Source: Gemella haemolysans (GTDB lineage Bacteria; Bacillota; Bacilli; Staphylococcales; Gemellaceae). Taken from it: a stretch of DNA of 33,475 nucleotides. Under the pieces are notes generated by a model. It worked only from the letters and a program-made list of their open reading frames with translations, did no database searches and was not told where the DNA came from. The number at the start of each line of letters is the position of its first letter. Position 1 is the first letter of the stretch. The stretch covers positions 1 to 33,475 of the forward strand of contig NZ_KQ959948.1 in assembly GCF_001553035.1 (NCBI RefSeq), written 5' to 3'. Below are positions 20,201-32,302 of this stretch, in pieces. Position numbers and translations under genes: made by a program.

Positions 20201-22505
20201 TCAATTAACAGCATTAGAACAATATAAAAATCAAGACGGTGCAAGAGTTGCTAATATGCAAATTTGGGCACAAAATAACACAGCTAATCAACTGACTGCT
20301 GCAAGACGTAGCATTGAAAGTTGGGTTAACGAGAAAGGTTATGCAACAACCTCTGTTGTTGAAAACAAGGTGCAAGAAACAGCTAATAGTTTTAGTCGAG
20401 AAATCAGTAATGTTAGAAATAGTATTCCAACTAGTGTAGGTGGGAGAAACTATATCCTTAACTCTAACTTTGCTAAAGAGCTTGAAAACTGGGAAATGGC
20501 TAGATTGAATAATAGTGGACTAAATTGGCAAAAAGGACACGCTATCCAGAATTTCGGTAGAGGGTTGCATATTTGGGGTACACCTAACGGAGATTATAAA
20601 GGATTAGGGACTATGTTTAACTTAACAGCGAAACAAGGTGAGAAATTAACCTTATCAATGGATTTAGGAAAAGATGCGTTAACACAAAATGCTATTTTAT
20701 ATATAGGATTACATTATGTCGTTGATAATGATATAGTTTCACAACAATGGCAACCATTGGATTTAGCAACACAAAATTTTGAAGTTAAGAAATATAAACG
20801 TATTTCAAAAACGTTCACAGTTACCGCTGATATGAATAAATGTAGGTTGATGATACACACTCAAAATAATAAACTTATCAATTTTTACATTGATAATATC
20901 AAACTAGAAAAAGGTGATATATCTACAGACTGGACACCAGCTCCTGAAGATGTAGAACAAAATGTGAATGAGTTAAACACGTGGAAACAAACTACCAATC
21001 AAACTTTAAACACAGTTACTAGCACATTAAACGATACTGTAAGGCACGCACAACTTCGAATAGGAGCTGATGGAATTGATTTTGGTTCAAACAAAGTTTT
21101 CAACGGAAGAAACCTTGCTAGTATTCTTTCCGTTAGTCCAGAAAGTATTCAAGCAATAACTGATAGATTAGTAATCTCACCAGCTAATGAGAATTTAGTT
21201 AAAAGAGAATATAGAGATACTTTCATTTTAAATGTTAGAAATGGTGTTTTAAATAGAATTTATGGAAGTAATGTTGATTTAGTAGGCGAATATCAATTTA
21301 AAGTTGCTATAATTGATTTTGATACACCTACACTTAATGCATCAATACATGTGAAGTATAAAGATGGAACAGATAGTTGGTTTAATTCAGAATTTCCAAC
21401 ACCTAGTATAGCAACTTTAGAAACAAGTACTTCTGTAAAAGTGCAAGTGGAATCGAGAAAAGAAATTGAATATATAGAACCTTTAGTTTTTCAAAATAAA
21501 TGGAGCGATTTTTATAGATTTCATTTGAAAAAATTATTTGTAGGTAAAAAGAAAAGTGCAGAATTAATCGTTGATGGTTCAATCGAGGGTCGACAAATTA
21601 AAGCTGAAACTTTAGAAACAGGACATCACAAGGCAGGAAGTATCACTTCAGAAATAATTGCTGCTAACGCTGTTAAAGCTAAGCATATATTAATAGATGA
21701 TGGTTTAATCAATAATCTAGTAACGCACAATGCTTTCATTTCTAAACTGTGGGCACAAGACGCTTTTATCAGAAGTTTAAAAACTGTTAAAATATCTACT
21801 ACTCAACTAGATACTGACTGGCTTTCAGCTTATACAGGAGATATTGGAGGATTCAGAATTGGTAAGAACCCGAACCAACCTGGAGACTTTTGGCTTACAG
21901 GTTCTAACAACTTCAACTGTGGATTAAACCCAGGTCACAACATTGGGACACGTGGTGCTCAAATTTGGGCAGCATGGGGATATAATTGGAATCAAGCAGG
22001 ACCGAATGCATGGTGGGTTGATGGACAAGGTAGAATGAATTGTAAAGGTTCAGCTACATTTTATGGTGGATTACATGTGTATAATGCCAGACTTGATACT
22101 CACGGTCAAGATATTCAAGGAGATGCGAATAGTAACGGAGCTAAAACTACTGTTATTTGGTGGTCACAAATTAACAGGGTTAAAAGTTCAGTATCTGATA
22201 AACGTTTCAAAACTAATATTAAACCAACTAAAGTTAAGGCAGTAGATTTACTTAATAAAATTGAAATGGTTGAGTTCAACTGGAAAAAAGATAATAAATT
22301 CGAAAAAATCGGAGCAATAGCTCAACAAGTTCAATCAGTAGAAGAAAGCCTTGTTGTTAAGGATATGGATTCTAAGCAATCACACAGTGATTATTTAAGA
22401 ATTAGTTACTATGACACTATACCTTATCTAATCAAAGCGGTACAAGAATTATCAGAAGAAAATAACAAATTAAAAAACAAACTGGAGGGAATAATAAATG
22501 GATAA
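17268..22505 (+). CDS. Tail-tip/tail-associated protein with carbohydrate-binding-like modules and S74 chaperone
   Basis: About 1745 residues. The N-terminus (LWLYDEFETDFTYNGIVLNN) is the gp27-like tail hub; residues about 220-345 form a Lys/Glu/Gln coiled coil. Then come a 20-residue tandem repeat (LEITKNRVEATKQIQA, twice, about 545-585) and two copies of a roughly 250-residue module (708-958 and 959-1228). Each module has a helical linker and a beta domain from GGRNYI to DWTPAPE, like carbohydrate-binding domains. The last about 100 residues (from SDKRFKTNI, S1643) are an S74 intramolecular chaperone, probably cut off before that Ser. It likely binds the host surface. ATG 17268 overlaps the Dit stop (TAATG); ATG 17250 is an alternative. 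Confidence 0.88.
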   Translation: MLWLYDEFETDFTYNGIVLNNAYDSDIHWVLNTMYKLTFKYPTVDNDLYSFIEKGMIVKADEHDRTNLFRIKDIDISENDKCITVTAYQKNYDFSKRLVNNFGRLRVNCMSVLDEWYSNFLSSEKDFSYYSDINAINSFVSHNDDTDNKLRTSFELLGGIADTYSADIDMHDKQISLLERLGRDTEEVLTTAKNISEFVNTSNSDEIVTRIYASSTFKVGDKYDKKDLREQHRQQLKALRESQKEYSQGRNAVKIAEQMKDEIAKKYAKELAKNNKKVKRSGKVIKSYSQIESEVNAKYQERERKSQQRKAESQAIADRKKAEIESLKAQQKEELEALDEEITINLIVESPLINDYPFINEIAVSNNDLRTAEELEEWAMEYFTKQNIDKPKNSIKVTYEQLSEDINRGDTVILKYLKYGVDERIRVVETHYDPILKKWKEFILGEKEGRLGSEVSNASSGAIAKANAYTDIITMDIERKVKERSENYDKLFKKNTDEINKKIEDGFEKAKASSEVITAKIDENLEKKLAPIRNQVSITVENYNRQFQATNLEITKNRVEATKQIQAANLEISKNRVEATKQIQALSDRVNNMQDISSNSTVVELKKLVNEAKETGKNINQKVTELEGNVTREFSSVKAKNENDLKVIRGEIKAGVDGLTSKISSLEEYKNQDGSRNESLKQWVQRDTASQLSRERTEINRVIDSKGFVKNTEFSSKFTENARGITNQLTALENYKNQDGVRTANLQIWVQNNTANQLTTERRNIESWVDDKGYATTSVVENKVQETANSISREIRNIRESIPTSVGGRNYITDSEKLQSKPHWGSNKWDETVDGDTIILTKKGGSDNTGFFFALTDLVKTQFQNETLTWSIDVKASRDMTLNTVGFETNGLRRVDISTQWKRMSHTFINKFTNFYAFVFYHPTTNFNNGDKIYIRLPKLEKGNVATDWTPAPEENNAFVKNTEFSNKFNENAQGINRQLTALEQYKNQDGARVANMQIWAQNNTANQLTAARRSIESWVNEKGYATTSVVENKVQETANSFSREISNVRNSIPTSVGGRNYILNSNFAKELENWEMARLNNSGLNWQKGHAIQNFGRGLHIWGTPNGDYKGLGTMFNLTAKQGEKLTLSMDLGKDALTQNAILYIGLHYVVDNDIVSQQWQPLDLATQNFEVKKYKRISKTFTVTADMNKCRLMIHTQNNKLINFYIDNIKLEKGDISTDWTPAPEDVEQNVNELNTWKQTTNQTLNTVTSTLNDTVRHAQLRIGADGIDFGSNKVFNGRNLASILSVSPESIQAITDRLVISPANENLVKREYRDTFILNVRNGVLNRIYGSNVDLVGEYQFKVAIIDFDTPTLNASIHVKYKDGTDSWFNSEFPTPSIATLETSTSVKVQVESRKEIEYIEPLVFQNKWSDFYRFHLKKLFVGKKKSAELIVDGSIEGRQIKAETLETGHHKAGSITSEIIAANAVKAKHILIDDGLINNLVTHNAFISKLWAQDAFIRSLKTVKISTTQLDTDWLSAYTGDIGGFRIGKNPNQPGDFWLTGSNNFNCGLNPGHNIGTRGAQIWAAWGYNWNQAGPNAWWVDGQGRMNCKGSATFYGGLHVYNARLDTHGQDIQGDANSNGAKTTVIWWSQINRVKSSVSDKRFKTNIKPTKVKAVDLLNKIEMVEFNWKKDNKFEKIGAIAQQVQSVEESLVVKDMDSKQSHSDYLRISYYDTIPYLIKAVQELSEENNKLKNKLEGIING
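19389..20950 (+). repeat. Tandem duplication of a ~250-residue tail-tip module
   Basis: Unit 1 (19389-20141) and unit 2 (20142 to about 20950) both read FVKNTEFS.KF.ENA.GI, LTALE.YKNQDG.R.AN, QNNTANQLT, then GYATTSVVENKVQETANS and IPTSVGGRNYI, and end in DWTPAPE. A third partial copy (EEYKNQDGSRNESLKQWVQ..TASQL) precedes unit 1. The linker halves are much more alike than the beta domains that follow them. Confidence 0.85.
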
Positions 22506-22680
22506 TCAATTACAACCAATCGACTTAATCGCACAAGAATTAAGCGAAAAAACAATGCAATTAGCACATTATAAAGTTGCTTACAATAAGTTAACTAACG
22601 AGCTAGAAGCTAAGGAGAAAGAGCTTAAAGAATTAAAAGAAACTAAAGTAGAAGAAGTAAAACATGAGGAGGAACAATAA
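22498..22680 (+). CDS. Small coiled-coil tail-region protein (60 aa)
   Basis: An almost wholly helical, charged protein (LAQ/LSEKTMQLAHYKVAYNKL then a Lys/Glu-rich end). ATG 22498 overlaps the end of the tail-tip gene; GGAGGG at 22485-22490 is well spaced. Small coiled-coil proteins after the tail-tip gene are common in streptococcal-type phages, and the function is unknown. A second ribosome-binding site for the next gene lies in its 3' end. Confidence 0.6.
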   Translation: MDNQLQPIDLIAQELSEKTMQLAHYKVAYNKLTNELEAKEKELKELKETKVEEVKHEEEQ

Positions 22681-22681
22681 T

Positions 22682-23437
22682 ATGGCTTTAGAAATTTCAG
22701 TTAAACAACCTAATCCAACTGCTGGTGGATACAAAAGCGTAAACGTATATTTTAACATGAATACCGGAGGAATTTATTTCAACGGTAACGTAGAATTGCC
22801 AGGTAAATTTGCAACTGCTAATGATGCAGAAATTTTAGAAGAGATTAGAAAGCAAATTGCAGTTCAGATGTACACAGGAGAAGCAACTCCAGCACTAGTT
22901 GCTGAATATGCTAATCTGAATAAGCAAGTAGGAATTTTAACGGGAAACAAACAAGATACAGCAGAACGTGAGAAAGCATTAACTAAGTTTGCTAATAAGG
23001 TAAATAAGGGTAATGATAAGGTGATTATGGCGCTGCTATTGAACGTGTTAGATCCTAAGACTATTAATGCTAAAAAAGATGTAATCATTAATGCATTTGA
23101 TTCTTATGAAGTCAACACAGATTATTCAGTAGGAGATAAATTCAAATATGACAATAAACTGTATGAAGTAGTGGAAGACCATACAAGTGTTGTTGAGTGG
23201 GTGCCAAGTGCTGAACCAACTAAATATAAAGAAATTACATTTGAACGTACTGAAAATAAAGAACAGTTAGAAGATGATAACAACCGCTACATCACTAAAT
23301 TACAACTTGATGAAGCATTAACAAAAGTAGTCCAAACAATTATGGAACAATTATCACAAGACGATGAAGGAGAAGAAGAACATGACAATCACGGAGAAAA
23401 TAGCAACAATTTATCACACAGCGAGGGGGATAATTAA
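22682..23437 (+). CDS. DUF1366-like tail-region protein
   Basis: 251 residues. It starts MALEISVKQPNPTAGGYKSV and has a helical middle; residues about 140-185 read YSVGDKFKYDNKLYEVVEDHTS..EWVPS, resembling the short chitin-binding-like (CBM5/12) fold in phage adsorption proteins. The end is acidic. Proteins of this type (DUF1366) lie between tail fibre and holin genes in streptococcal phages. ATG 22682 is preferred over 22664, because AGGAGG lies between them at 22667-22672. Confidence 0.6.
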   Translation: MALEISVKQPNPTAGGYKSVNVYFNMNTGGIYFNGNVELPGKFATANDAEILEEIRKQIAVQMYTGEATPALVAEYANLNKQVGILTGNKQDTAEREKALTKFANKVNKGNDKVIMALLLNVLDPKTINAKKDVIINAFDSYEVNTDYSVGDKFKYDNKLYEVVEDHTSVVEWVPSAEPTKYKEITFERTENKEQLEDDNNRYITKLQLDEALTKVVQTIMEQLSQDDEGEEEHDNHGENSNNLSHSEGDN

Positions 23438-23438
23438 G

Positions 23439-23792
23439 ATGAAATTTAGCTTAAAACATGCAAAATTTAAACAAAACGATTATTTAGTACAAACTCATAT
23501 GAGATTAGTAATTACAGAGGTTGAAACTTTAGAACAAGTCCCTAACTTTGGAAACTTACGTGAAATGGTTAGGTTAGCAGTTGAGGAATTCAAACGAAAA
23601 GAAGCAGAACTTAAGGCAGTTGAAGAAGTAGCCACACCTAAAGAAGTTGTAACTGAAGCACCAAAAGAAGTCGTTGTTACTCCTGCTCCAGTAAGTGAAA
23701 CTCCAAAAGAGGTAGTCACTCCAACACCAACAGTAAGTGAAACACCAAAAGATAATACTGAATCAGAAAGAAAAGAAGAGCATGCAGAATAG
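23439..23792 (+). CDS. Hypothetical protein with Thr/Pro/Val-rich repeats
   Basis: 117 residues. A short folded N-terminal part (KFSLKHAKFKQNDYLVQTHMRLVITEVETLEQV) and a helix are followed by repeats of the type TPKEVV/APKEVV/SETPKEVV and TPTVSETPK, an extended linker-like tail. I prefer ATG 23439, 2 bases after the preceding stop, with GAGGGGG at 23423-23429 upstream. ATG 23382 in the same frame, with AAGGAG at 23366-23371, would add 19 residues and overlap the upstream gene. The stop lies inside a terminator hairpin. Function unknown. Confidence 0.55.
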   Translation: MKFSLKHAKFKQNDYLVQTHMRLVITEVETLEQVPNFGNLREMVRLAVEEFKRKEAELKAVEEVATPKEVVTEAPKEVVVTPAPVSETPKEVVTPTPTVSETPKDNTESERKEEHAE

Positions 23793-23805
23793 CATGTTCT
23801 TTTTT
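23776..23805 (+). terminator. Terminator before lysis module
   Basis: AAGAGCATGC-type stem (23776-23785) pairs with GCATGTTCTT (23792-23801), with an AGAATA loop and one G-U pair, followed by a T run. It overlaps the stop codon of the upstream gene and separates tail from lysis genes. Confidence 0.8.
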
Positions 23806-23819
23806 ACGAGGTAGTCTAA

Positions 23820-24251
23820 ATGACGAACTATATTTTGCAATTTATATTGCAGCTTTTTACAGTAGCTATTATTCCATTAGTTAAGATTTGGTTTGACAAC
23901 AGCAATAAACAAATCACAAAACAATTTGAACAGTTAAGTAACGAAGTAAAAAGCACGCAAGATAAAACAGAAAAGCAACTTGATAAGGTAAGTATGGAAG
24001 TAAAGAACACGCAAGATAAAGTCGATGAAGTAACACAAATAGGACTACATAATCGTGACTCAAATAAAAGTATAATGTCTTATAGGTTGCATAAGGAATT
24101 TAGTGAGGCTATAGATCGAGGATATACTACAAGCGAAGATTTATCAGAGCTAAGTGGACTATACAAAAGTTATAAGGAAATCGGTGGCAATGGTAAGATT
24201 GAAACTTTATTCAATAGATTTGCAAAGTTGCCAATAAAAAATAGGAGATAG
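23820..24251 (+). CDS. Membrane-anchored coiled-coil lysis-module protein
   Basis: 143 residues. One N-terminal membrane span (about 3-24, ILQFILQLFTVAIIPLVKIW) is followed by a coiled coil with a repeated unit (EVKSTQDKTEKQLDKVSMEVKNTQDKVDEV, in two halves) and a C-terminal GYTTSEDLSELSGLYKSYKEIGGNGKIE segment. This organisation is seen in holin-associated proteins upstream of holin and endolysin genes in streptococcal and lactococcal phages. It may tune lysis timing, by context only. Confidence 0.65.
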   Translation: MTNYILQFILQLFTVAIIPLVKIWFDNSNKQITKQFEQLSNEVKSTQDKTEKQLDKVSMEVKNTQDKVDEVTQIGLHNRDSNKSIMSYRLHKEFSEAIDRGYTTSEDLSELSGLYKSYKEIGGNGKIETLFNRFAKLPIKNRR

Positions 24252-24256
24252 AGGAA

Positions 24257-24397
24257 ATGAAAAAACTAGTAAGAACAAATTTAACTAATACTCCTAACAG
24301 ACGTGGAACTAAGGATTTAAATATTCAATTCTACTCACAAGACAAGAATAATGCTGGATTTGAGTTTGTGGTAAAAAATGAAACTGATTTTAAATAA
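24257..24397 (+). CDS. BppU N-terminal-like small protein, possibly broken
   Basis: 46 residues; RNRRGTKDLNIQFYSQDKNNAGFEF-like sequence (exactly TPNRRGTKDLNIQFYSQDK) resembles the start of the BppU-type baseplate upper domain, which tethers baseplate proteins by an N-terminal clip. The usual BppU continuation (DFKLNNITLQNV...) is found, but in the overlapping frame of 24378-24497, so the domain seems split by a frame change after NETDF. GAGG at 24251-24254 serves the ATG. It may be a remnant or two tiny overlapping genes. Confidence 0.45.
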   Translation: MKKLVRTNLTNTPNRRGTKDLNIQFYSQDKNNAGFEFVVKNETDFK

Positions 24398-24497
24398 TAT
24401 TACATTACAAAATGTAACTAGTGAAATGCTAAAAGGAATCAATTTAGGCTTAATAGTATATCCGACTCAAGAAGCATGGATGACAAAATTACCTTAG
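24378..24497 (+). pseudogene. Continuation of the BppU-like segment in a second frame
   Basis: 39 codons from ATG 24378 to TAG 24495: MKLILNNITLQNVTSEMLKG, then a short end. It overlaps the preceding small gene by 20 bases and has no clear ribosome-binding site. The LNNITLQNV stretch looks like the next part of a BppU-type N-terminal domain. I read it as the second piece of a broken gene; a frameshift or translational coupling could also join them. Confidence 0.35.
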
Positions 24498-24513
24498 AAA
24501 GGGGGTGAGTAAT

Positions 24514-24777
24514 ATGCCAGATTTACAAACAGCATCAGTATTTCTAATAGTTGCACTATTAGGGATGTTGGGAAAATTTTTAAAAGAATCTAAATTCTTT
24601 CCAGATGAAATGATACCTAATATTTTAGGAGTATTAGGAGGGTTAATCGGAACGATTCTATTCAAAGACCCTACTGCAATTGCCTTAGGTTTTAGTGCGG
24701 TTGGGGTTCACCAATCTTACAGACAAACTGTAGGAAAAAATGATACAAATAATATAAACAAAACGGAGGATAAATAA
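24514..24777 (+). CDS. Holin
   Basis: 87 residues with two membrane spans (about 5-24, ASVFLIVALLGMLG, and 37-70, MIPNILGVLGGLIGTIL...AIALGFSAVG) and a charged C-terminus. It resembles phage holins of the Hol44/superfamily V type. It would form the membrane lesion that releases endolysin. The AAAGGGGGTGAG block (24498-24509) is the ribosome-binding site, so ATG 24514 is chosen over GTG 24505. The stop overlaps the endolysin ATG (TAATG). Confidence 0.85.
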   Translation: MPDLQTASVFLIVALLGMLGKFLKESKFFPDEMIPNILGVLGGLIGTILFKDPTAIALGFSAVGVHQSYRQTVGKNDTNNINKTEDK

Positions 24778-25502
24778 TGGTTAGAACAAGTGAAATTGTA
24801 AATGAAGCAAAAAGAATAGCGAATCTAGGAATCGGAGTAGATCAAGACGGAGCTTATGGAACACAATGTGTTGATTTACCTAACTATCTATCAGTGTTAT
24901 TTTTTGGTAAAGCTCTGTGGGGCAATGCTATTGATTTACTAAATAGTGCTGCTGCATTAGGATATAAAGTTGAATATAATGAAGCTGGTAATCTTAATAG
25001 TAAACCACGAGCAGGAGCTATATTTGTTATGGATACAACATATATCTATGGGCATCCATATGGGCATACTGGAACAGTAATTGAGGATAGTGATGGATAT
25101 ACTATGAAAACTATTGAACAGAATGTTGATGGTAATGCTGATAGTTTATATGTAGGTGGCCCAGCACGTTATATGCAACGTGATTTTAACGGAATTGTAG
25201 GTTGGTTCTATTTCCCAGTTGATGATAACGAAGTAGTAGAAACAAACTCTGATCTAATCTCATTGCCTGAAGTACGTGTATATACAGTTGGAGTTGATAA
25301 ACTTAATATTAGAAATGCACCATCTACAGATGCAGAAATCGTAGGTTCATATGAAAAAGGTGAAGAATTCAATTACATGGAATTCTGCAATGCTAACGGA
25401 TATGAATGGTTATCTTACATTTCTAACAGTGGTGTAAGACGTTATGTGGCTTCAATGGATTTAGAGACATTTGAAACTCACGGAACGTGGAGAAAAAAAT
25501 AA
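24777..25502 (+). CDS. Endolysin: CHAP domain plus C-terminal SH3-like wall-binding domain
   Basis: 241 residues. The N-terminal CHAP amidase/endopeptidase has C31 (GTQCVDLPNY), H97 (YGHTGTV) and E114/N116 (TIEQN). The C-terminal part (about 165-241) has VRVYTVGVDKLNIRNAPSTD, then GEEFNYMEF and GYEWLSYISNSGVRRYVA, an SH3_5-type cell-wall-binding fold. It cuts peptidoglycan at lysis after release through the holin. It ends the late operon, and a terminator follows within 30 bases. Confidence 0.93.
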   Translation: MVRTSEIVNEAKRIANLGIGVDQDGAYGTQCVDLPNYLSVLFFGKALWGNAIDLLNSAAALGYKVEYNEAGNLNSKPRAGAIFVMDTTYIYGHPYGHTGTVIEDSDGYTMKTIEQNVDGNADSLYVGGPARYMQRDFNGIVGWFYFPVDDNEVVETNSDLISLPEVRVYTVGVDKLNIRNAPSTDAEIVGSYEKGEEFNYMEFCNANGYEWLSYISNSGVRRYVASMDLETFETHGTWRKK

Positions 25503-25531
25503 CTAACTGAATAAATCATAATGACTATTAT

Positions 25532-25561
25532 AACCCCACTTAATTGTGGGGTTTATTTTTT
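25532..25561 (+). terminator. Terminator at the end of the late operon
   Basis: AACCCCAC (25532-25539) pairs with GTGGGGTT (25546-25553), with a TTAATT loop, followed by a T-rich tract. It isolates the accessory operon downstream from late transcription. Confidence 0.88.
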
Positions 25562-25586
25562 TTATATATATTTTTTAAAAAAACTA

Positions 25587-25615
25587 TTGACACGCTCGAG
25601 CGTGTATAGTATAAT
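25587..25615 (+). promoter_or_regulatory. Strong promoter of the accessory operon with palindromic operator
   Basis: The consensus -35 TTGACA (25587-25592) and -10 TATAAT (25610-25615) are 17 bases apart. A 16-bp perfect palindrome, ACACGCTCGAGCGTGT (25590-25605), overlaps the -35 end and fills most of the spacer. It is GC-rich in an AT-rich surround. A bound dimeric repressor would block RNA polymerase directly. No obvious repressor gene is in the window; one of the operon's own small products could do it. Confidence 0.85.
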
Positions 25616-25649
25616 TATAAATGTAAGATAAAGAAAGAGGTAAAACATC

Positions 25650-25976
25650 ATGGCATACACAATTTACAAAAGAGGTCAAATCACAAAATACGAAGCAGGA
25701 GTTGTATACAGAGCGTACAAAAATAATGAAATTAACTGCTTACCAGAATTCACAAAATGGTTATATGATGAAACAAACGCTTATATTGGAACAGCTATTC
25801 AACGTTATAATCAAGATGCTAGAACTTACGACAGAGTATATGAAATAGTTAGAAGTATCTTAGACAAAGATTTTGATAAAGCTAATGAATTAATTAAAAT
25901 AATTCAAGATGATTTTATTAGATTATGTGGTAAAAAATCAATGTTTTATAAATATAAAAAAGAAGAAGATAAATAG
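25650..25976 (+). CDS. Unrecognised 108-aa first gene of the accessory operon
   Basis: A soluble, Tyr/Lys/Asn-rich, mainly helical protein with no family I recognise. Residues about 9-26 (QITKYEAGVVYRAYKNNE) could form a helix-turn-helix-like pair. It is the first gene after a strong operator-controlled promoter, beyond the endolysin and near the attachment end. That is where Listeria and streptococcal prophages often carry anti-CRISPR or other anti-host genes, some of which repress their own promoter. This is inference from position only; size is compatible with an Acr. AGAGG at 25635-25639 serves the ATG. Confidence 0.6.
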   Translation: MAYTIYKRGQITKYEAGVVYRAYKNNEINCLPEFTKWLYDETNAYIGTAIQRYNQDARTYDRVYEIVRSILDKDFDKANELIKIIQDDFIRLCGKKSMFYKYKKEEDK

Positions 25977-25988
25977 GAGGAAATGAAA

Positions 25989-26504
25989 ATGAAAGCACAA
26001 GAAATATTAAATTTAATGAAAGAAACAATAATAAATGGGGGCGAATTAAACTTCGCCCTTAAACACAAAAGAATAAACAGATATTTAGCTAACTATGATA
26101 CTAAAAACTACGCTGGAGTATTTGCTTTTTCAAACGCAGGAATTTACGGTATATACGGAGATTTTTTAGAAGAAAGTTTTGATTTTGAAAATAATCAAAT
26201 TGATAATAGAAATCAAAAAGATGAAACAATTTTAGAAGTTTTAGAAGCTATTCTAGTTGATTGGGAACTAGTAGAAGAAGTAAAAGATAATAAACTAGAA
26301 TACAGTTTTAAACCTTATACAATTAGATATGAGCCTCAATATGTTCAAGATATTGCACAAGATAAAAGAATTTATATATCTAAACAAGGTAATGAAGTAA
26401 TTGAATTTACAATTGATGGTTGCAAATGGAATATGAAATTAGAAAAATTTAACGGTGAAAAAATCAGATACAAATTAGACAAAGCTGTAGTGGAGTATCT
26501 TTAA
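25989..26504 (+). CDS. Unrecognised 171-aa accessory protein
   Basis: A soluble alpha/beta protein. The helical start (MKAQEILNLMKETIINGGELNFALKHKRI, in pieces) is followed by Tyr/Gly-rich strands (YAGVFAFSNAGIYGIYGDF) and an acidic middle. No family is recognised. ATG 25989 is chosen over 25983, because AGGAGG at 25975-25980 leaves 8 rather than 2 bases. It lies 12 bases after the first gene and 1 base before the next, so the operon is tightly packed. Its job is probably linked to its neighbours. Confidence 0.6.
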   Translation: MKAQEILNLMKETIINGGELNFALKHKRINRYLANYDTKNYAGVFAFSNAGIYGIYGDFLEESFDFENNQIDNRNQKDETILEVLEAILVDWELVEEVKDNKLEYSFKPYTIRYEPQYVQDIAQDKRIYISKQGNEVIEFTIDGCKWNMKLEKFNGEKIRYKLDKAVVEYL

Positions 26505-26505
26505 T

Positions 26506-26856
26506 ATGTGGAAAACAATTCAATTTAATAAGCAAAACATTGAATATGAATCTGACAGGGCAGTATTAATAAAACTGCCCAACAGTTCATATTATAAAAA
26601 TTATAAATTTTGGCATCCTTCTAAACTAATTAGACCGCTAAAAAAAGGAAATGGATATTTCTTAAGTTTATCTTACACAGATGAATTCAGATTTAAAATA
26701 TTCAAAAATGATAAAACAACTAAAGAAATATGTGGTGAAGAATTAGCGTTATGTTTTAATCAACTTACAGAAGAAGATGACACAAGTTATTTAGAAATAA
26801 CAGAACCTGTTAAGATTAACAAGAATGTGGAAATAATTTCAGAATTGGAGCGTTAG
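26506..26856 (+). CDS. Unrecognised 116-aa protein, partner of the downstream helicase by position
   Basis: A beta-rich protein with RAVLIKLPNSSYYKNYKFWHPSKLIR (residues about 19-44, quoted in part: FWHPSKLIR). Similar short proteins are found upstream of SNF2-like helicases in streptococcal-type phages. It ends one base before the helicase ATG, so the two are probably translated together. It might bind nucleic acid or the helicase; nothing in the sequence proves this. Confidence 0.6.
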   Translation: MWKTIQFNKQNIEYESDRAVLIKLPNSSYYKNYKFWHPSKLIRPLKKGNGYFLSLSYTDEFRFKIFKNDKTTKEICGEELALCFNQLTEEDDTSYLEITEPVKINKNVEIISELER

Positions 26857-26857
26857 T

Positions 26858-28099
26858 ATGCTTACAGAAAACCAGAAACAAGCATTTGAGAAGTTTAAAA
26901 AATTAAAAGTAGGTGCTTTGTTCATGGAACAAGGGACAGGGAAAACTAAGGTAGCGTTAGAATTAATTAAAACTACAGATTGTGATTTAGTTTTGTTTTT
27001 CTGTCCTTTTTCTACAAAAGACAATCTACAAGATGAAATAAATAAATGGACGTTAGACATAGATTATAAAATTATAGGATATCAAACTTTATCAAATAGT
27101 GATAAAACTTACGTTGAATTACTTGAAGAAATAGAAGATAAAAAGCTATTCATCGTTGCTGATGAAAGTATATTTATTAAAAACGATGATACAAAACGAT
27201 ATAAAAGGCTTATAAACATTGCTAAAATGAGTGATTACAGATTGATTTTAAATGGCACACCATTAACTAAAAATGAATGGGATATTTACAATCAGATGAA
27301 TTTCTTAAGTGATAAAATCATTGGAATGAGTAAACAAGAATTCTTAAATGTATTTTTTAAAAAAATATCATATAAGAAAGTTGGCCAACGTCCTAAAGAA
27401 TTTTACAAGTTATCTGATGTTAACATAGACTATTTACATAAACTGATCGCACCGTATATATTTGAATGTGAGTTTGAATTTGATAAAAACGAAGAAATTA
27501 AATATATTAGAATAATTGCAAGTGAAGAAGCACAGGAGAGCTACAATCGTAAAAAGCAACAATTACTGAATTCAATCAGTAAGGGAGAAAGCATAATAGA
27601 TCAATTTCAAAATCTAGCTTATAGTTGTTTTAATGATAAAAAAAGACATGTAGAAATAGCTGAATTTATAAAAAAAGAAAATCAGATAATAGTTTTTTGT
27701 ACTTTAGTAAATGAAGCTGTAAATATTGCTAATCTATTAAATTGCTATTTAATCACAGGTGATACTCCATTAAGTAAACGTTCTGAAATAAAAGAGAGTT
27801 TTAAAAAAGATAATAAACCTTTAGTAATGACTTTAGGAACAGGTGCTTATGCTTTGAATTTACAATTTTGTAATAAGATTGCATTTAGTAGTATAACATT
27901 TGATTATGCAAAAACAGAACAAGCTCTTAAAAGAATTAAAAGAATGGGCCAAGAAAAAGATATTGAGTATATTTATTTTACTTCTAATTTAGGTATATTC
28001 AATATGATCTTTGAAAATAACGAAAAGAAAAGAAGTTTAAAAGAATTGTTGATAGACAAGATTAATGAAGGGAGTGATTATTTTGAAAATATATTGTAA
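26858..28099 (+). CDS. SNF2-like superfamily 2 helicase
   Basis: 413 residues with complete SF2 motifs: Walker A QGTGKT (25-30), Walker B variant VADES (100-104), motif III-like LNGTPLTKNE (131-140), motif V MTLGTGAYALNLQ and motif VI QALKRIKRMGQ (355-365). The arrangement is SNF2/DEAD-type with no extra nuclease or DNA-binding domain. It would be an ATP-driven translocase on double-stranded DNA. In phages such proteins usually lie in the replication region; here it is in the accessory operon with an IbrA/IbrB-like pair. A ribosome-binding site (GGAGCG, 26847-26852) is just upstream. Confidence 0.88.
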   Translation: MLTENQKQAFEKFKKLKVGALFMEQGTGKTKVALELIKTTDCDLVLFFCPFSTKDNLQDEINKWTLDIDYKIIGYQTLSNSDKTYVELLEEIEDKKLFIVADESIFIKNDDTKRYKRLINIAKMSDYRLILNGTPLTKNEWDIYNQMNFLSDKIIGMSKQEFLNVFFKKISYKKVGQRPKEFYKLSDVNIDYLHKLIAPYIFECEFEFDKNEEIKYIRIIASEEAQESYNRKKQQLLNSISKGESIIDQFQNLAYSCFNDKKRHVEIAEFIKKENQIIVFCTLVNEAVNIANLLNCYLITGDTPLSKRSEIKESFKKDNKPLVMTLGTGAYALNLQFCNKIAFSSITFDYAKTEQALKRIKRMGQEKDIEYIYFTSNLGIFNMIFENNEKKRSLKELLIDKINEGSDYFENIL

Positions 28100-29381
28100 T
28101 GAAAATGTATTTGAAGCTAGTAAAGACAGAGTAAAATATATATTTGATGAATTTGAAAATATATATGTGTCTTTCTCTGGTGGTAAAGATAGTGGAGTAT
28201 GCATGCATTTAATGTGTGAAGAAGCTAGAAAAAGAAATAGAAAAATAGGTGTCTTATTCATTGATATAGAAGCACACTATCAAATGACTATTGACTATTC
28301 AATTCAAATGATAGAAAAGTATAAAGATGTAATTACACCTTACTGGATATGTTTACCTATGCTTACAGATAACAGTTTATCCTACAATGAAATGACTTGG
28401 AGTTGGTGGGAAACTGAAAAGAAAGATATTTGGGTAAGGGAAATGCCAACAATGGATTATGTTATCAATGTAGATAATAATCCTATTGATTATTACAAGT
28501 ACAATATGACTTTTGAAGATTTTGTTGCTAAGTTTGGTAAGTGGTTTGGTAAAGATGAAAAGACAGCCTGTATAATAGGTATAAGAACACAAGAGAGTTT
28601 AAACCGTTGGAGAGCCTTAACAACTAAAAATAAACGTAAATACAAAGATATAATGTACTCTACACAGGTTGATGAAAATGTATATAATTTTTATCCTATA
28701 TATGATTATACAACAGAAGATATTTGGACTTATTATGGAAAGACTGGGAATGAGTACAATAAATTTTATGATTTAATGTATAAAGCTGGAGTATCAATTC
28801 ATAGTATGAGAATTGATGAACCGTTTGGAGATACAGCAAAAGCTGGATTAAATATGTTTAAAATAATTGAACCTAAAACTTGGGTGAAAATAGTCGGAAG
28901 AGTTGCTGGAGCTAATTTTGGAAATATCTATGCAAATTCAACTATAAATACAGCTAATTATAAATTACCGAAAGGTCACAGTTGGGAAAGCTTCACATAT
29001 TTTCTTTTAGATACATTGCCAAAAAATGCTAGTGATCATTACAAAGAAAAATTCAATAAGTTTATAAAATGGTGGACAGAGAAAGGTTCTGGAATGAGAC
29101 AAGAAGACATCGATATATTAAATATCAATTACAACGGAGCTATATTTCAAACTGGAGAAATGAGTACTAGAGGTAATAAGGATAAAGAGGTAATTAAGTT
29201 TAATCATGTTGTTGATACTATTCCAGAACTTGACAGTAAGCAAGATGTTTTAACGTGGAAAAGAATGGCAATGTGTATTATTAAAAATGATTATTTCTGC
29301 AAAAGTTTATCATTTGGAATAAGTAAGGAACAGTTGAAAAGAAGAAAGGAGACAATGAAGAAATATGAGTCAATTTTGTAG
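28083..29381 (+). CDS. IbrA-like PP-loop (PAPS reductase/DUF3440) protein
   Basis: 432 residues. The PP-loop SGGKDS (32-37) marks the ATP pyrophosphatase/PAPS reductase fold, and the C-terminal region (VGRVAGANFGNIYANST, LPKGHSWESFTYFLL, HYKEKFNKFIKWW) fits the DUF3440 domain of IbrA-type proteins. These pair with a ParB-like IbrB, as here. The family is poorly understood; IbrA/IbrB were described as regulators in Escherichia coli, and related folds activate substrates with ATP, including in DNA sulfur modification. The start is TTG 28083, with AAGGGAG at 28068-28074. ATG 28065 overlaps that site. It overlaps the helicase by 17 bases. Confidence 0.82.
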   Translation: MKIYCNENVFEASKDRVKYIFDEFENIYVSFSGGKDSGVCMHLMCEEARKRNRKIGVLFIDIEAHYQMTIDYSIQMIEKYKDVITPYWICLPMLTDNSLSYNEMTWSWWETEKKDIWVREMPTMDYVINVDNNPIDYYKYNMTFEDFVAKFGKWFGKDEKTACIIGIRTQESLNRWRALTTKNKRKYKDIMYSTQVDENVYNFYPIYDYTTEDIWTYYGKTGNEYNKFYDLMYKAGVSIHSMRIDEPFGDTAKAGLNMFKIIEPKTWVKIVGRVAGANFGNIYANSTINTANYKLPKGHSWESFTYFLLDTLPKNASDHYKEKFNKFIKWWTEKGSGMRQEDIDILNINYNGAIFQTGEMSTRGNKDKEVIKFNHVVDTIPELDSKQDVLTWKRMAMCIIKNDYFCKSLSFGISKEQLKRRKETMKKYESIL

Positions 29382-29880
29382 TCCAGTATATAACATTAAA
29401 AGAGTGCCTGTAGAAAAAATTCAAGCAAATAGCTATAACCCTAACCATGTAGCACCGCCAGAAATGAAACTACTTTATAAATCAATTCTAGAGGACGGTT
29501 ACACAATGCCTATAGTGTGTTACTACTTAGAAGATATAGATAAGTTTGAAATAGTTGATGGCTTTCATAGATATACTGTGATTAAGAAGCATAAAGATAT
29601 ATTTGAGCGTGAGGGCGGCTGTTTGCCAGTATCTGTTATTAATAAACCTATAAGTGATAGAATGGCTTCAACTATCAGACACAATAGGGCAAGAGGCTCT
29701 CACGATGTCGAACTTATGACTAATATTGTAACTGAATTAGTAGAAAGTGGTTGTTCTGATAGATGGATAATGAAGAATATTGGAATGGATGCAGATGAAT
29801 TATTAAGATTAAAACAATTAAGTGGGTTAGCAGCGATATTTAAAGATAAAGAATTTTCAAAAGCATGGGTTGTTGAATAA
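29365..29880 (+). CDS. IbrB-like ParB-domain protein
   Basis: 171 residues with a ParB/Srx-like N-terminal domain: VPVEKIQANSYNPNHV, GYTMPIVCYY, the EIVDGFHRY motif (62-70) and RHNRARGSH (105-113). This is followed by a helical end resembling the DNA-binding part of ParB (CSDRWIMKNIGMDADELLRL). In ParB-fold proteins the GxxR and (D/E)GxHR motifs bind CTP or ATP. It overlaps the IbrA-like gene by 17 bases, and the two form the standard IbrA/IbrB pair. It is the last gene of the operon. Confidence 0.82.
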   Translation: MSQFCSPVYNIKRVPVEKIQANSYNPNHVAPPEMKLLYKSILEDGYTMPIVCYYLEDIDKFEIVDGFHRYTVIKKHKDIFEREGGCLPVSVINKPISDRMASTIRHNRARGSHDVELMTNIVTELVESGCSDRWIMKNIGMDADELLRLKQLSGLAAIFKDKEFSKAWVVE

Positions 29881-29923
29881 ATTTATTTTTGATATAATTA
29901 TAAAAAAAAATTAGGAGAAGGAC

Positions 29924-30103
29924 ATGAATAAAATATCTGAAGCTAAACTAAGAAGCAATAAAAAATGGGATGATAATAATCGTGAACGTAAAAGATATAT
30001 CAATAAGAGATCCACGGCAAGAAGTTTTATTAAAACAATGGAACGAGAAGACATCCCAGAATTTGAAGCATTATTAGAAGAACGTAAAGCTAGAAAAGAT
30101 TAA
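29924..30103 (+). CDS. Small basic phage protein (59 aa) next to the anti-repeat RNA
   Basis: A highly charged helical protein: SEAKLRSNKKWDDNNRER then YINKRSTARSFIKTM and EDIPEFEALLEERKARK. Proteins of this pattern occur near the ends of streptococcal-type phage genomes, with unknown function; the basic first half may bind nucleic acid. TAGGAGAAGG at 29912-29921 is the ribosome-binding site, and TATAAT at 29893-29898 could be its promoter. Its stop lies 8 bases before the extended -10 of the anti-repeat RNA gene. It could be expressed in lysogeny. Confidence 0.65.
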   Translation: MNKISEAKLRSNKKWDDNNRERKRYINKRSTARSFIKTMEREDIPEFEALLEERKARKD

Positions 30104-30110
30104 TATTAAA

Positions 30111-30119
30111 TGTTATAAT
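30111..30119 (+). promoter_or_regulatory. Extended -10 promoter of the anti-repeat RNA
   Basis: TGTTATAAT fits the extended -10 consensus TGnTATAAT exactly. No good -35 hexamer is seen 16-18 bases upstream, which an extended -10 does not need. The predicted transcription start is near 30,126, a few bases before the anti-repeat. Confidence 0.7.
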
Positions 30120-30125
30120 AAATTT

Positions 30126-30183
30126 GTTAGTAGAATTCAAAATTTACATAGGAGGGGCAGCATTAAAGCTGCCTCTTTTTTTT
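30126..30183 (+). ncRNA. Phage anti-repeat RNA (tracrRNA-like decoy, putative)
   Basis: A predicted transcript of about 58 nt. Bases 30130-30150 are the exact reverse complement of 33455-33475 in the first CRISPR repeat (21 nt, and the window ends there, so the match could be longer). The core is GTAGAATTCAAAATTTACAT. The host tracrRNA has the same segment at 33319-33337 with one A missing. Right after the anti-repeat the phage RNA has a terminator hairpin. It lacks the lower-stem anti-repeat (TCAAAT), nexus and UUCG hairpins needed for Cas9 binding. Predicted effect: pairs with pre-crRNA or crRNA repeats and competes with tracrRNA. Not experimentally known to me. Confidence 0.75.
30153..30183 (+). 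terminator. Terminator of the anti-repeat RNA
   Basis: A nine-pair stem, AGGGGCAGC (30153-30161) with GCTGCCTCT (30168-30176), has an ATTAAA loop and one G-T pair. It is followed by T up to 30183. The T run is on the + strand only, so the RNA is made from left to right. Confidence 0.9.
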
Positions 30184-30324
30184 AGGGGCATGGGGGTACA
30201 AATTAGGGGCAAATTTCCTCGTAAAAGCATTTTTTTACGGGAAAATACGAGAGTGGAAAGTCAGTAATACAAGGAGTTTTGAGCATATTCGAGGATATAT
30301 GATATATATGAATATGTCAATGCG
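30184..30324. other. Prophage right end / attR region
   Basis: About 140 bases between the RNA terminator and recognisable cas9. They hold a direct repeat TAGGGGCA (30183-30190 and 30204-30211), an interrupted inverted repeat CTCGTA...TACGAG (about 30218-30252), and CATATTC (30284-30290) opposite GAATATG (30310-30316), spaced by 19 bases. These could be recombinase arm or core sites. The crossover must be at or near 30,316-30,340, where sequence changes from phage to cas9. A 25-codon frame at 30190-30267 is probably not a gene. Confidence 0.6.
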
Positions 30325-31452
30325 AAAGATGCTTATCTAAATATAGTGGTAGGAAATGTCTATGATACTAAGTTTACGCGTAACGTATTTAATTTTATTA
30401 AAGATAAAAAAGATGGAAGAAAATATTCACTTAATAAGGTATTCTATGAAAATGTTAGTGATTCAAAAACAGTAGCTTGGGAAATGGATAAAACAATTTA
30501 TCAAGTGGAAAAAGTCATGAATAATAACAATATCCTAGTAACAAGAAGAACATCTGAACAAAAAGGTGGGTTATTCGATGCTACAGTCTATAAAGCTAAA
30601 GTTGCAGCGAAAGCTAAAGATGGTGTATATTATCCATTAAAAACTTCTAATTCTGTAGTGAAAGATGTTGCTAAGTATGGTGGATTCACAAAAATTAAAA
30701 TAGCGTATTATTCTATTTTTGAATATGTACTTGTTAACAAAAAAGGTGAAGAGAAAATAACAAGAATTATTCCAATTCCAATTTATATCTCGCAAAATAT
30801 TAAGGATGATAATACACTATTAGAATTCGGTAAAACTCAAATTAATTTGAAATCTGGTGAAGAAATTAAAGACCTTAAGTTGAAATATAGAAAATTATGT
30901 ATAGGTGATAAAATTTGTTTAGAAGGATATCCATATTTTGTTGGAGGTAAAACAAGTGATTACTTTGTATATGATAGTGCAGTACAAGTATTAATAGATA
31001 AAGAAAATGAAAAATATATTAAGGAAATTGTGAAGTTTACAAATTGGAAAAAAGATAATAAAGATGGAGAATTATCGAAGAACATTACTCGCAAGAAAAA
31101 TACGGATTTATACAATACATTATTGCAAAAAATGAAAACACCAGAATTAATCAATAAAAAACCAAATAAATATCAAGAATTTGAAAAAGAGAAAACAATA
31201 CATAAATTTAATGACTTAAACGAGGAGGAACAGAGCAAAGTTCTTTTAGAAATGTTAAATCTTTTAACAGATATGAAGACGGTTTATGATTTAAAACTAA
31301 TAAATATAACAGCAACTAGAGGAAAACAAAATTTTGATTTAACAAGTTTAAAAGAATTTACAATTGTAGAACAATCTGTTACAGGATTCTATGAAAAAGA
31401 AATAACAATAATAGGGGATAAAGGGAATGACATGGAGAACAATAATAGTTAG
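30325..31452 (+). pseudogene. cas9: cas9, 3' fragment (RuvC-III end plus PAM-interacting domain), split by the prophage
   Basis: The frame reads KDAYLNIVVGNVYDTKFTRN at its start, the RuvC-III motif of type II-A Cas9 (HHAHDAYLNAVVG in Streptococcus pyogenes). It then runs through the C-terminal domain (YSIFEYVLVNKKGEEKITR, YRKLCIGDKICLEGYPYF) to the closing SVTGFYEKEITI. About 375 codons match residues about 985 to the end of S. pyogenes Cas9. Upstream, where HHA is expected, it reads VNA, and a TGA occurs at 30280. RuvC-I/II, the bridge helix, REC and HNH are all absent. GTG 30346 has no ribosome-binding site, so the fragment is probably not translated. It overlaps cas1 by 26 bases. Confidence 0.93.
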
Positions 31453-32302
31453 AGATAGGGCGAAGCTAGACTATAGCTTGAATTTCCTAACTGTAAGAAA
31501 AGAAGCGGAGACTAAAAAAGTTAGTCTTAACGAAATATACATGATCATTATTGAAAGCACAGCGGTAACTATTACCGCCGTGCTTTTAAATGAACTCATG
31601 AAAAATAAAATTAAGGTAATATTTTGTGATGAAAAAAGAAATCCTAGTTCGGAATTAATACCATACTATGGAAGTCATGATACAAGTCTAAAGTATAAGA
31701 ATCAGCTAGAATGGTCTACCGAGAGTAAAGAAAGAATTTGGACAAGGATAGTATATGAGAAAATTAATAATCAAATGCTGCTGTTAAAGAAATTAGGTAA
31801 AGAAGAGTATAAGTTATTAGAACAATATCTTACAGAACTAGAGTGGAATGACAGCAGTAACAGAGAAGGACATGCAGCCAAGGTTTACTTCAATGCCATG
31901 TTTGGTATGGGTTTTAGTAGAAATAAAGAATGCTTTACGAATGCTGCATTAGATTATGGTTATTCAATTATATTATCTGCCTTTAATAGAGAAATTGTAT
32001 CGTGTGGATATTTTACGCAGTTAGGCTTATGTCACAGAAATCCATATAATAAATTTAATCTAGCCAGTGATTTTATGGAACCTTTCAGAATATTAGTAGA
32101 TGAAATAGTATTTGGTTTAGATGCTGATGAATTTACTAAAGATCATAAAAACTTATTAGTTAATATTCTAAATAACACCATTGAAATTGATGACAAAGAA
32201 CAAACTGTAGCTAATGCGATTAAAATATATGTTCGTAGTTTGTTTACCTCATTAAAAGAAAATGATTTAGAATATATAAAGATGTATAAGTATGAGTTAT
32301 AG
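31427..32302 (+). CDS. cas1: Cas1 integrase, type II
   Basis: 291 residues with the type II start MTWRTIIV. Metal ligands are E147 (REGHAAKVYFNAMFG), H203 (GLCHRNPYN) and D215/E218 (ASDFMEPFR). Cas1 and Cas2 integrate new spacers at the leader end; type II-A also needs Cas9 and Csn2 for this. The start overlaps the cas9 end, AAGGGA at 31421-31426 abuts the ATG, and GGGGATAAAGGG lies just upstream. In the lysogen it is separated from the cas9 promoter, so expression needs an internal promoter or phage transcription. Confidence 0.95.
   Translation: MTWRTIIVRDRAKLDYSLNFLTVRKEAETKKVSLNEIYMIIIESTAVTITAVLLNELMKNKIKVIFCDEKRNPSSELIPYYGSHDTSLKYKNQLEWSTESKERIWTRIVYEKINNQMLLLKKLGKEEYKLLEQYLTELEWNDSSNREGHAAKVYFNAMFGMGFSRNKECFTNAALDYGYSIILSAFNREIVSCGYFTQLGLCHRNPYNKFNLASDFMEPFRILVDEIVFGLDADEFTKDHKNLLVNILNNTIEIDDKEQTVANAIKIYVRSLFTSLKENDLEYIKMYKYEL

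Follow-up and report, generated by a model that had tools for sequence, protein, structure and literature searches.

Does a prophage that splits cas9 carry an inhibitor of Cas9, and if so, which gene encodes it and what controls its expression? The question is raised by a stretch of 33,475 nucleotides from Gemella haemolysans (contig NZ_KQ959948.1; hereafter, the window), in which an operon follows directly on the lysis genes of a temperate phage. The original prediction, made from the sequence of the window, had placed anti-CRISPR candidates here, with the first gene of a three-gene operon as the best candidate for inhibitor, autorepressor or both. Here, we compare this locus with related loci in phages and genomes. 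We consider it probable, if well short of certain, that the locus is an acr-aca operon in which the second gene encodes a Cas9 inhibitor and the last gene, which encodes a 59-aa protein, its repressor.

Promoter, operon layout and the interrupted cas9 gene

Downstream of the endolysin gene, which has its end at 25502, a terminator-like hairpin on the + strand (25532–25553) closes the lysis genes and separates them from a sigma70-type promoter, TTGACA-17-TATAAT (25587–25615, + strand). As predicted, this promoter matches the consensus, at 12 of 12 positions, and carries a 16-bp perfect palindrome, ACACGC-TCGA-GCGTGT (ACACGCTCGAGCGTGT; 25590–25605), across its −35 box and spacer, with three small genes downstream. 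A loose scan of positions 22000–31500 found 54 promoter-like sites compared with 54.3 expected in shuffles; thus, only the score of 12 of 12, which this site alone reached, is notable. The palindrome, a putative operator, is present in one copy in the window, and no copy with up to 3 mismatches was found in a 14.9-kb contig stretch comprising the 5′ part of cas9 and the prophage's left arm. An inverted repeat lies inside the core promoter, as expected of an acr-aca operon.

The three small ORFs encode proteins of 108, 173 and 116 aa (gene 1, 25650–25976; gene 2, 25983–26504; gene 3, 26506–26856; all + strand). The expectation that all three belong to no known family holds in that none has a Pfam match at E ≤ 1, but gene 3 matches phrog_27058 (1.4e-40), a family of unknown function. 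Likewise, the three ORFs are present as predicted, but the operon does not end at 26856: later genes, separated by gaps of 1 to 43 bases or overlapping, continue to 30103. Based on Pfam and PHROGs, these encode, all on the + strand, an SNF2-type helicase (phrog_62; 26858–28099), an IbrA-like PAPS reductase/DUF3440 protein (28065–29381) and an IbrB-like ParB-domain protein (29365–29880); the gene for the 59-aa protein (phrog_2277, 2.7e-15) follows at 29924–30103. No strong + strand terminator is listed between the operon genes, the only hairpin being one of 5 pairs inside ibrB, and a single transcript may cover all of them.

The C-terminal part of cas9 starts approximately 250 bases beyond the 59-aa gene (Cas9_PI, 1.4e-47), while the N-terminal part is found on another contig as a 1029-aa ORF followed by an integrase gene. 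The prophage therefore splits cas9. The split is near the conserved HHA-K-DAYLN (window 30103–30346; L030 3440–3620); the left part ends in ...DFHHAK and then runs out of frame, and the right part begins with ...AKDAYLNIVVGN. The two flanks of the prophage share no 12-mer. Repeats of TTAGGGGCA are present just inside both prophage ends. Downstream of csn2, L215 has a CRISPR array with 36-base repeats and spacers of ∼30 bases, of which 9 are readable and the rest masked. None of the 9 readable spacers matches the prophage, the best having 6 mismatches, in a T-rich stretch, and the others at least 9. A literature search combining Gemella and anti-CRISPR returned no paper.

Gene 2, AcrIIA24 and the slot upstream of gene 3

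Gene 3 gives access to comparable loci. Using tblastn, it was found in 18 Streptococcus phage records at 48–52% identity, and in all 18 the slot immediately 5′ of gene 3, which gene 2 occupies in the window, holds either acrIIA5 (6/18; D4276, CHPC877 and CHPC1062, each twice) or a member of the CHPC1148_0023 family (12/18; CHPC1148 twice and 10 S. equinus phages). These records are strongly redundant; in the five regions that were read, the lysin is followed by one or more small genes and then by gene 3, helicase, IbrA and IbrB. AcrIIA5 is annotated as such in D4276, and the D4276 locus (PMC6060171) has the gene order of the window, from the lysin through a small gene, an Acr and gene 3 to the helicase, IbrA and IbrB, except that it has AcrIIA5 where the window has gene 2. 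Residues 91–170 of CHPC1148_0023 match PDB 7vlm_A (6.2e-43), and 7VLM is reported to be AcrIIA18 (PMC13131331). The N-terminal half of AcrIIA18, to which the RNase residues are assigned in a review (PMC9953297), is not matched by CHPC1148_0023, and we therefore regard this family as half-relatives of AcrIIA18. Proteins that combine the C-terminal half of AcrIIA18 with an unrelated N-terminal half are encoded in L006, L007, L014 and L028, which suggests domain shuffling in this slot. A Staphylococcales MAG (L027, 1081–1882) encodes an AcrIIA5 of 50% identity (6lkf, 1.1e-38) in the order Gp111-like gene, AcrIIA5, gene 3, helicase, IbrA, IbrB, HTH gene.

Gene 2 itself also points to a known inhibitor. 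First, it aligns with AcrIIA24 (AZF92405.1) at 26.7% identity over 90 residues, from residue 4 to residue 91, with a blastp E of 3.3e-5 in sets of 13 and 15 proteins. AZF92405.1, named AcrIIA24 by Song et al. 2022 (PMC8934645, Table 1), is from Streptococcus phage CHPC930 and corresponds to the CDS at L045 4001–4315. Second, a profile of the AcrIIA24 family, built from 13 sequences with gene 2 left out, scores gene 2 at 23.4 bits, while the highest score among 20,000 shuffled versions of gene 2 was 15.0. Third, when 1,999 distinct ORFs (≥80 aa) of the collected loci are ranked by the profile, gene 2 and a one-residue variant of it come directly below the 11 family members, and the next ORF has 13.3 bits. 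Fourth, AcrIIA24-family genes also lie in post-lysis loci beside other Acrs: a 104-aa member is upstream of acrIIA5 in CHPC1062, and in CHPC930 and CHPC1246 members lie 3′ of a 183-aa gene that resembles AcrIIA6. These comparisons identify gene 2 as a remote homologue of the tested Cas9 inhibitor AcrIIA24. Residues 4–105 of gene 2 are colinear with AcrIIA24; gene 2 differs by its identity of only ∼27%, an insertion of ∼7 residues near 63–70, a longer C terminus, another host and the lack of an HTH fusion, as present in Javan350, where a family member is fused C-terminally to an HTH. Neither Pfam nor PHROGs links the two: gene 2 has no PHROG match and, at E ≤ 1, does not hit phrog_1529, although known members of the AcrIIA24 family do; thus, gene 2 is a relative rather than a filed member of this family. 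The structure prediction that had been proposed was carried out for gene 2 and gave a poor model (pLDDT 61.7), better at residues 1–30 and 51–100 (helix, strands, helix); Foldseek found no significant match to it in the PDB. Matches of gene 2 in Staphylococcus (E 7e-5 to 9e-3) were rejected as relatives, all lying within ORFs of 387–418 aa that, by analogy with a PDB match (2o1b), appear aminotransferase-like.

Gene 1 fared differently. Searches of phages, genomes and the PDB yielded no credible relative outside the prophage itself and a near-identical copy, matches at E 1e-3 to 1e-2 being attributed to chance because they lie inside long ORFs or cross stops. Searches for an HTH in gene 1 and gene 2 found none, the best gene 1 match (E 0.043) being far below the cut-off. 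None of genes 1, 2 and 3 has homology to AcrIIA5, AcrIIA6, AcrIIA18, AcrIIA25, AcrIIA2 or AcrIIA3; the best match, at chance level, is between gene 3 and an AcrIIA18-like protein over 25 residues (E 0.01). The idea that gene 1 is the prime inhibitor or autorepressor is therefore dropped: gene 1 is an orphan, and the operator tracks the 59-aa protein instead (see below). Gene 2, rather than gene 1, is the best inhibitor candidate of the operon; gene 1 is a possible second inhibitor with nothing specific in its favour.

It is conceivable, but in our estimate unlikely, that gene 2 is derived from AcrIIA24 yet has lost its activity against Cas9 or targets a different defence, and that gene 1 or none of the genes is the true inhibitor, in which case the operon would still be an accessory anti-defence operon. 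The low identity to AcrIIA24 and the extra stretch in gene 2 are compatible with such a loss, and gene 1 comes first in the operon, as expected of a fast-acting product. Moreover, AcrIIA24 itself is selective, strongly inhibiting St3Cas9, weakly SpyCas9 and not at all St1Cas9, and the same study reports 17 candidate neighbours of Acr genes without inhibition (PMC8934645), so that neighbourhood alone is weak evidence. Against this stand the position of gene 2, which in the 18 phage records is exactly that of an Acr or a gene resembling one, and the lack of any homologue of gene 1 near an Acr in our searches.

The wider distribution of gene 3 bears on a second, improbable alternative, namely that the operon is unrelated to CRISPR, has the helicase, IbrA and IbrB as its core, perhaps for DNA sulfur chemistry or another modification, and includes the small genes to assist this core or counter other defences. 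An AcrIIA5 or AcrIIA18-like gene is present in the slot in 4/15 non-window viral loci (L012–L015) and 2/3 genome loci (L027 and L028); in the other 12/18 non-window loci, all with a divergent gene 3, no Acr was recognised in the slot. Gene 3 therefore tracks the cassette and is not confined to loci with Acr genes. Similarly, phage 94 has the operator, IbrA, IbrB and the 59-aa gene without gene 3 or a recognised Acr. Against this alternative, the small genes of the closest relatives encode either known Acrs or proteins with half of an Acr, and gene 2 has homology of its own to an Acr with tested activity. The helicase/IbrA/IbrB cassette (window 26858–29880) is conserved beside gene 3 across very different viral contigs and is possibly a DNA-modifying module.

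Thus, the original prediction of a post-lysis, operator-controlled operon in an anti-CRISPR context is supported by the AcrIIA5 and AcrIIA18-like genes in the slot of relatives and by gene 2. Among the loci compared, neither a predominance of homologues in hosts lacking Cas9 nor a clear assignment to an unrelated family was seen, either of which would have counted against that prediction.

Operator types and the 59-aa protein

Scanning the promoters of related loci revealed an inverted repeat at the equivalent position, the type of which varies with the type of locus. TGTTGAC-N4-GTCAACA, or a sequence near it, is present in four AcrIIA5 loci (L004, L005, L008 and L012), TATCAT-N2-ATGATA in three AcrIIA6 loci (L044, L045 and L048), and ACACGC-N4-GCGTGT, with the half-sites and spacing of the window, in four AcrIIA18-type loci (L006, L007, L014 and L015). 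The half-site would be expected by chance with a probability of 4.7e-5, given the base composition. The half-sites of the window are also present in L056, L101 and L126; L013 and L028 have other repeats, and in L027 the scan found no promoter. Scanning viral contigs for ACACGC-N4-GCGTGTATA gave 29 stretches, most of which lack a promoter and are attributed to chance; among the matches listed, loci such as L098 (the near-identical copy of the window), L099, L114, L125 and L101 have a strong promoter. L056, which covers the opposite end of the L114 operon, has a second ACACGC promoter before an AcrIIA24-family gene.

The operons with the ACACGC operator share one gene at their end. Wherever the end of such an operon is in view (the window, L006, L007, L015, L056, L101 and L126; the L014 sequence stops before the corresponding position), the operon includes the 59-aa gene, which is the sole gene common to those readable to the end. 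By contrast, the four AcrIIA5 operons with the TGTTGAC-type operator have an HTH protein at this place, and the D4276 locus accordingly differs from the window in both operator and terminal gene. AcrIIA18-type operons (CHPC1148 and Pika; PDB 7VLM) resemble the window in operator half-sites, spacing and the tail from gene 3 to the 59-aa protein, but in most of them the first gene matches AcrIIA18 over the C-terminal half alone, and they lack genes 1 and 2.

Promoter palindromes are common, being present in 13/31 strong promoters of the locus set, and we therefore count only covariation as evidence. Among the matches listed, 80 of 189 viral loci and 9 others yielded 46 distinct proteins of the 59-aa family; by script, 28/46 have a promoter palindrome and 18/46 do not. 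ACG-type operators accompany 9/10 distinct proteins of the YI type, i.e., with YI in a conserved stretch, versus 0/18 others (Fisher p 1.4e-6, uncorrected for relatedness and with the class split and operator pattern chosen post hoc). Of two individual cases, L144, the exception, has a nearer promoter with ATACGC-ATTA-GCGTGT, and L143 (phage phiadh) has a degenerate operator below the threshold. Because the operator covaries with it, the 59-aa protein is the likely regulator.

What kind of regulator would this be? The 59-aa family matches residues 89–141 of PDB chain 8ye6_B, ‘A32’ (E 4.7e-21; 1.3e-6 for the single sequence). Judging from the chain name and a reference to the AcrIIA32 structure in PMC13089141, ‘A32’ is probably AcrIIA32, which Song et al. 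report to be a fusion with Aca13 (PMC8934645). If so, the 59-aa protein would correspond to Aca13; like Aca13, the family is small and found in acr operons, but the protein of the window stands alone at the end of the operon, whereas Aca13 is fused in AcrIIA32. A remote acr homologue (gene 2) and a homologue of the C-terminal part of A32 (29924–30103) are thus on one strand in one operon. AcaFinder describes Aca13 as not validated and having no HTH (PMC9765179). The model of the 59-aa protein consists of four helices (pLDDT 86) with no strand and no recognised DNA-binding fold, and Foldseek found no match in the PDB; the missing strand led us to reject a classical ribbon-helix-helix fold. The autorepressors Aca1–10, as described in PMC9410906, share with the window an inverted repeat in the acr core promoter and a small regulator gene in the operon but are HTH proteins, and no recognised HTH is seen in the 59-aa model. 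The Listeria LP-101 locus, which carries AcrIIA2 and AcrIIA3, and AcrIIA6-like loci also have relatives of the 59-aa protein. We conclude that the Aca13-like 59-aa protein is a probable autorepressor that binds the operator, which also suggests that Aca13 is a real operator-binding regulator. That gene 1 or gene 2 is the autorepressor instead is improbable: several AcrIIA proteins have their own DNA-binding domain and prophages encode AcrIIA24-family members as fusions with an HTH, but neither gene has a detected HTH, and both are absent from L006, L007, L101 and L126, which have the same operator and the 59-aa gene.

A model for early inhibition and later repression

In the acr-aca reading, the promoter at 25587–25615 would fire strongly upon entry of the phage DNA, when no repressor is present, and the AcrIIA24-like product of gene 2 would be made early and inhibit the type II-A Cas9 of the host. 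This block would probably be at cleavage, a guess based on the report that AcrIIA24 does not block DNA binding (PMC8934645). The Aca13-like product of the last gene would then accumulate, bind ACACGC-N4-GCGTGT across the −35 box and turn the operon off; gene 3, the helicase, IbrA and IbrB would be co-expressed cargo. More broadly, and only tentatively, we suggest that a non-HTH 59-aa autorepressor with a readable operator code controls post-lysis anti-defence operons in phages of Streptococcus, Listeria and Lactobacillus, and that the product of gene 2 is a new inhibitor of Cas9 and protects the phage up to its integration into, and destruction of, cas9. If true, this would be a two-step attack on one immune gene, cas9, and gene 2 is a specific candidate for a Cas9 inhibitor in a cas9-integrating phage.

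The ACACGC-N4-GCGTGT operator together with the 59-aa protein may also serve as a sequence marker for finding further acr operons. In L101 (14027–14989), nearly the same promoter and operator precede a gene for a 243-aa protein and a 59-aa gene of 75% identity. By eye, the C-terminal half of the 243-aa protein is ADP-ribosyltransferase-like, a likeness that comparisons with Pfam and the PDB did not support. Based on operator and gene order, the two genes are a candidate second acr-aca pair.
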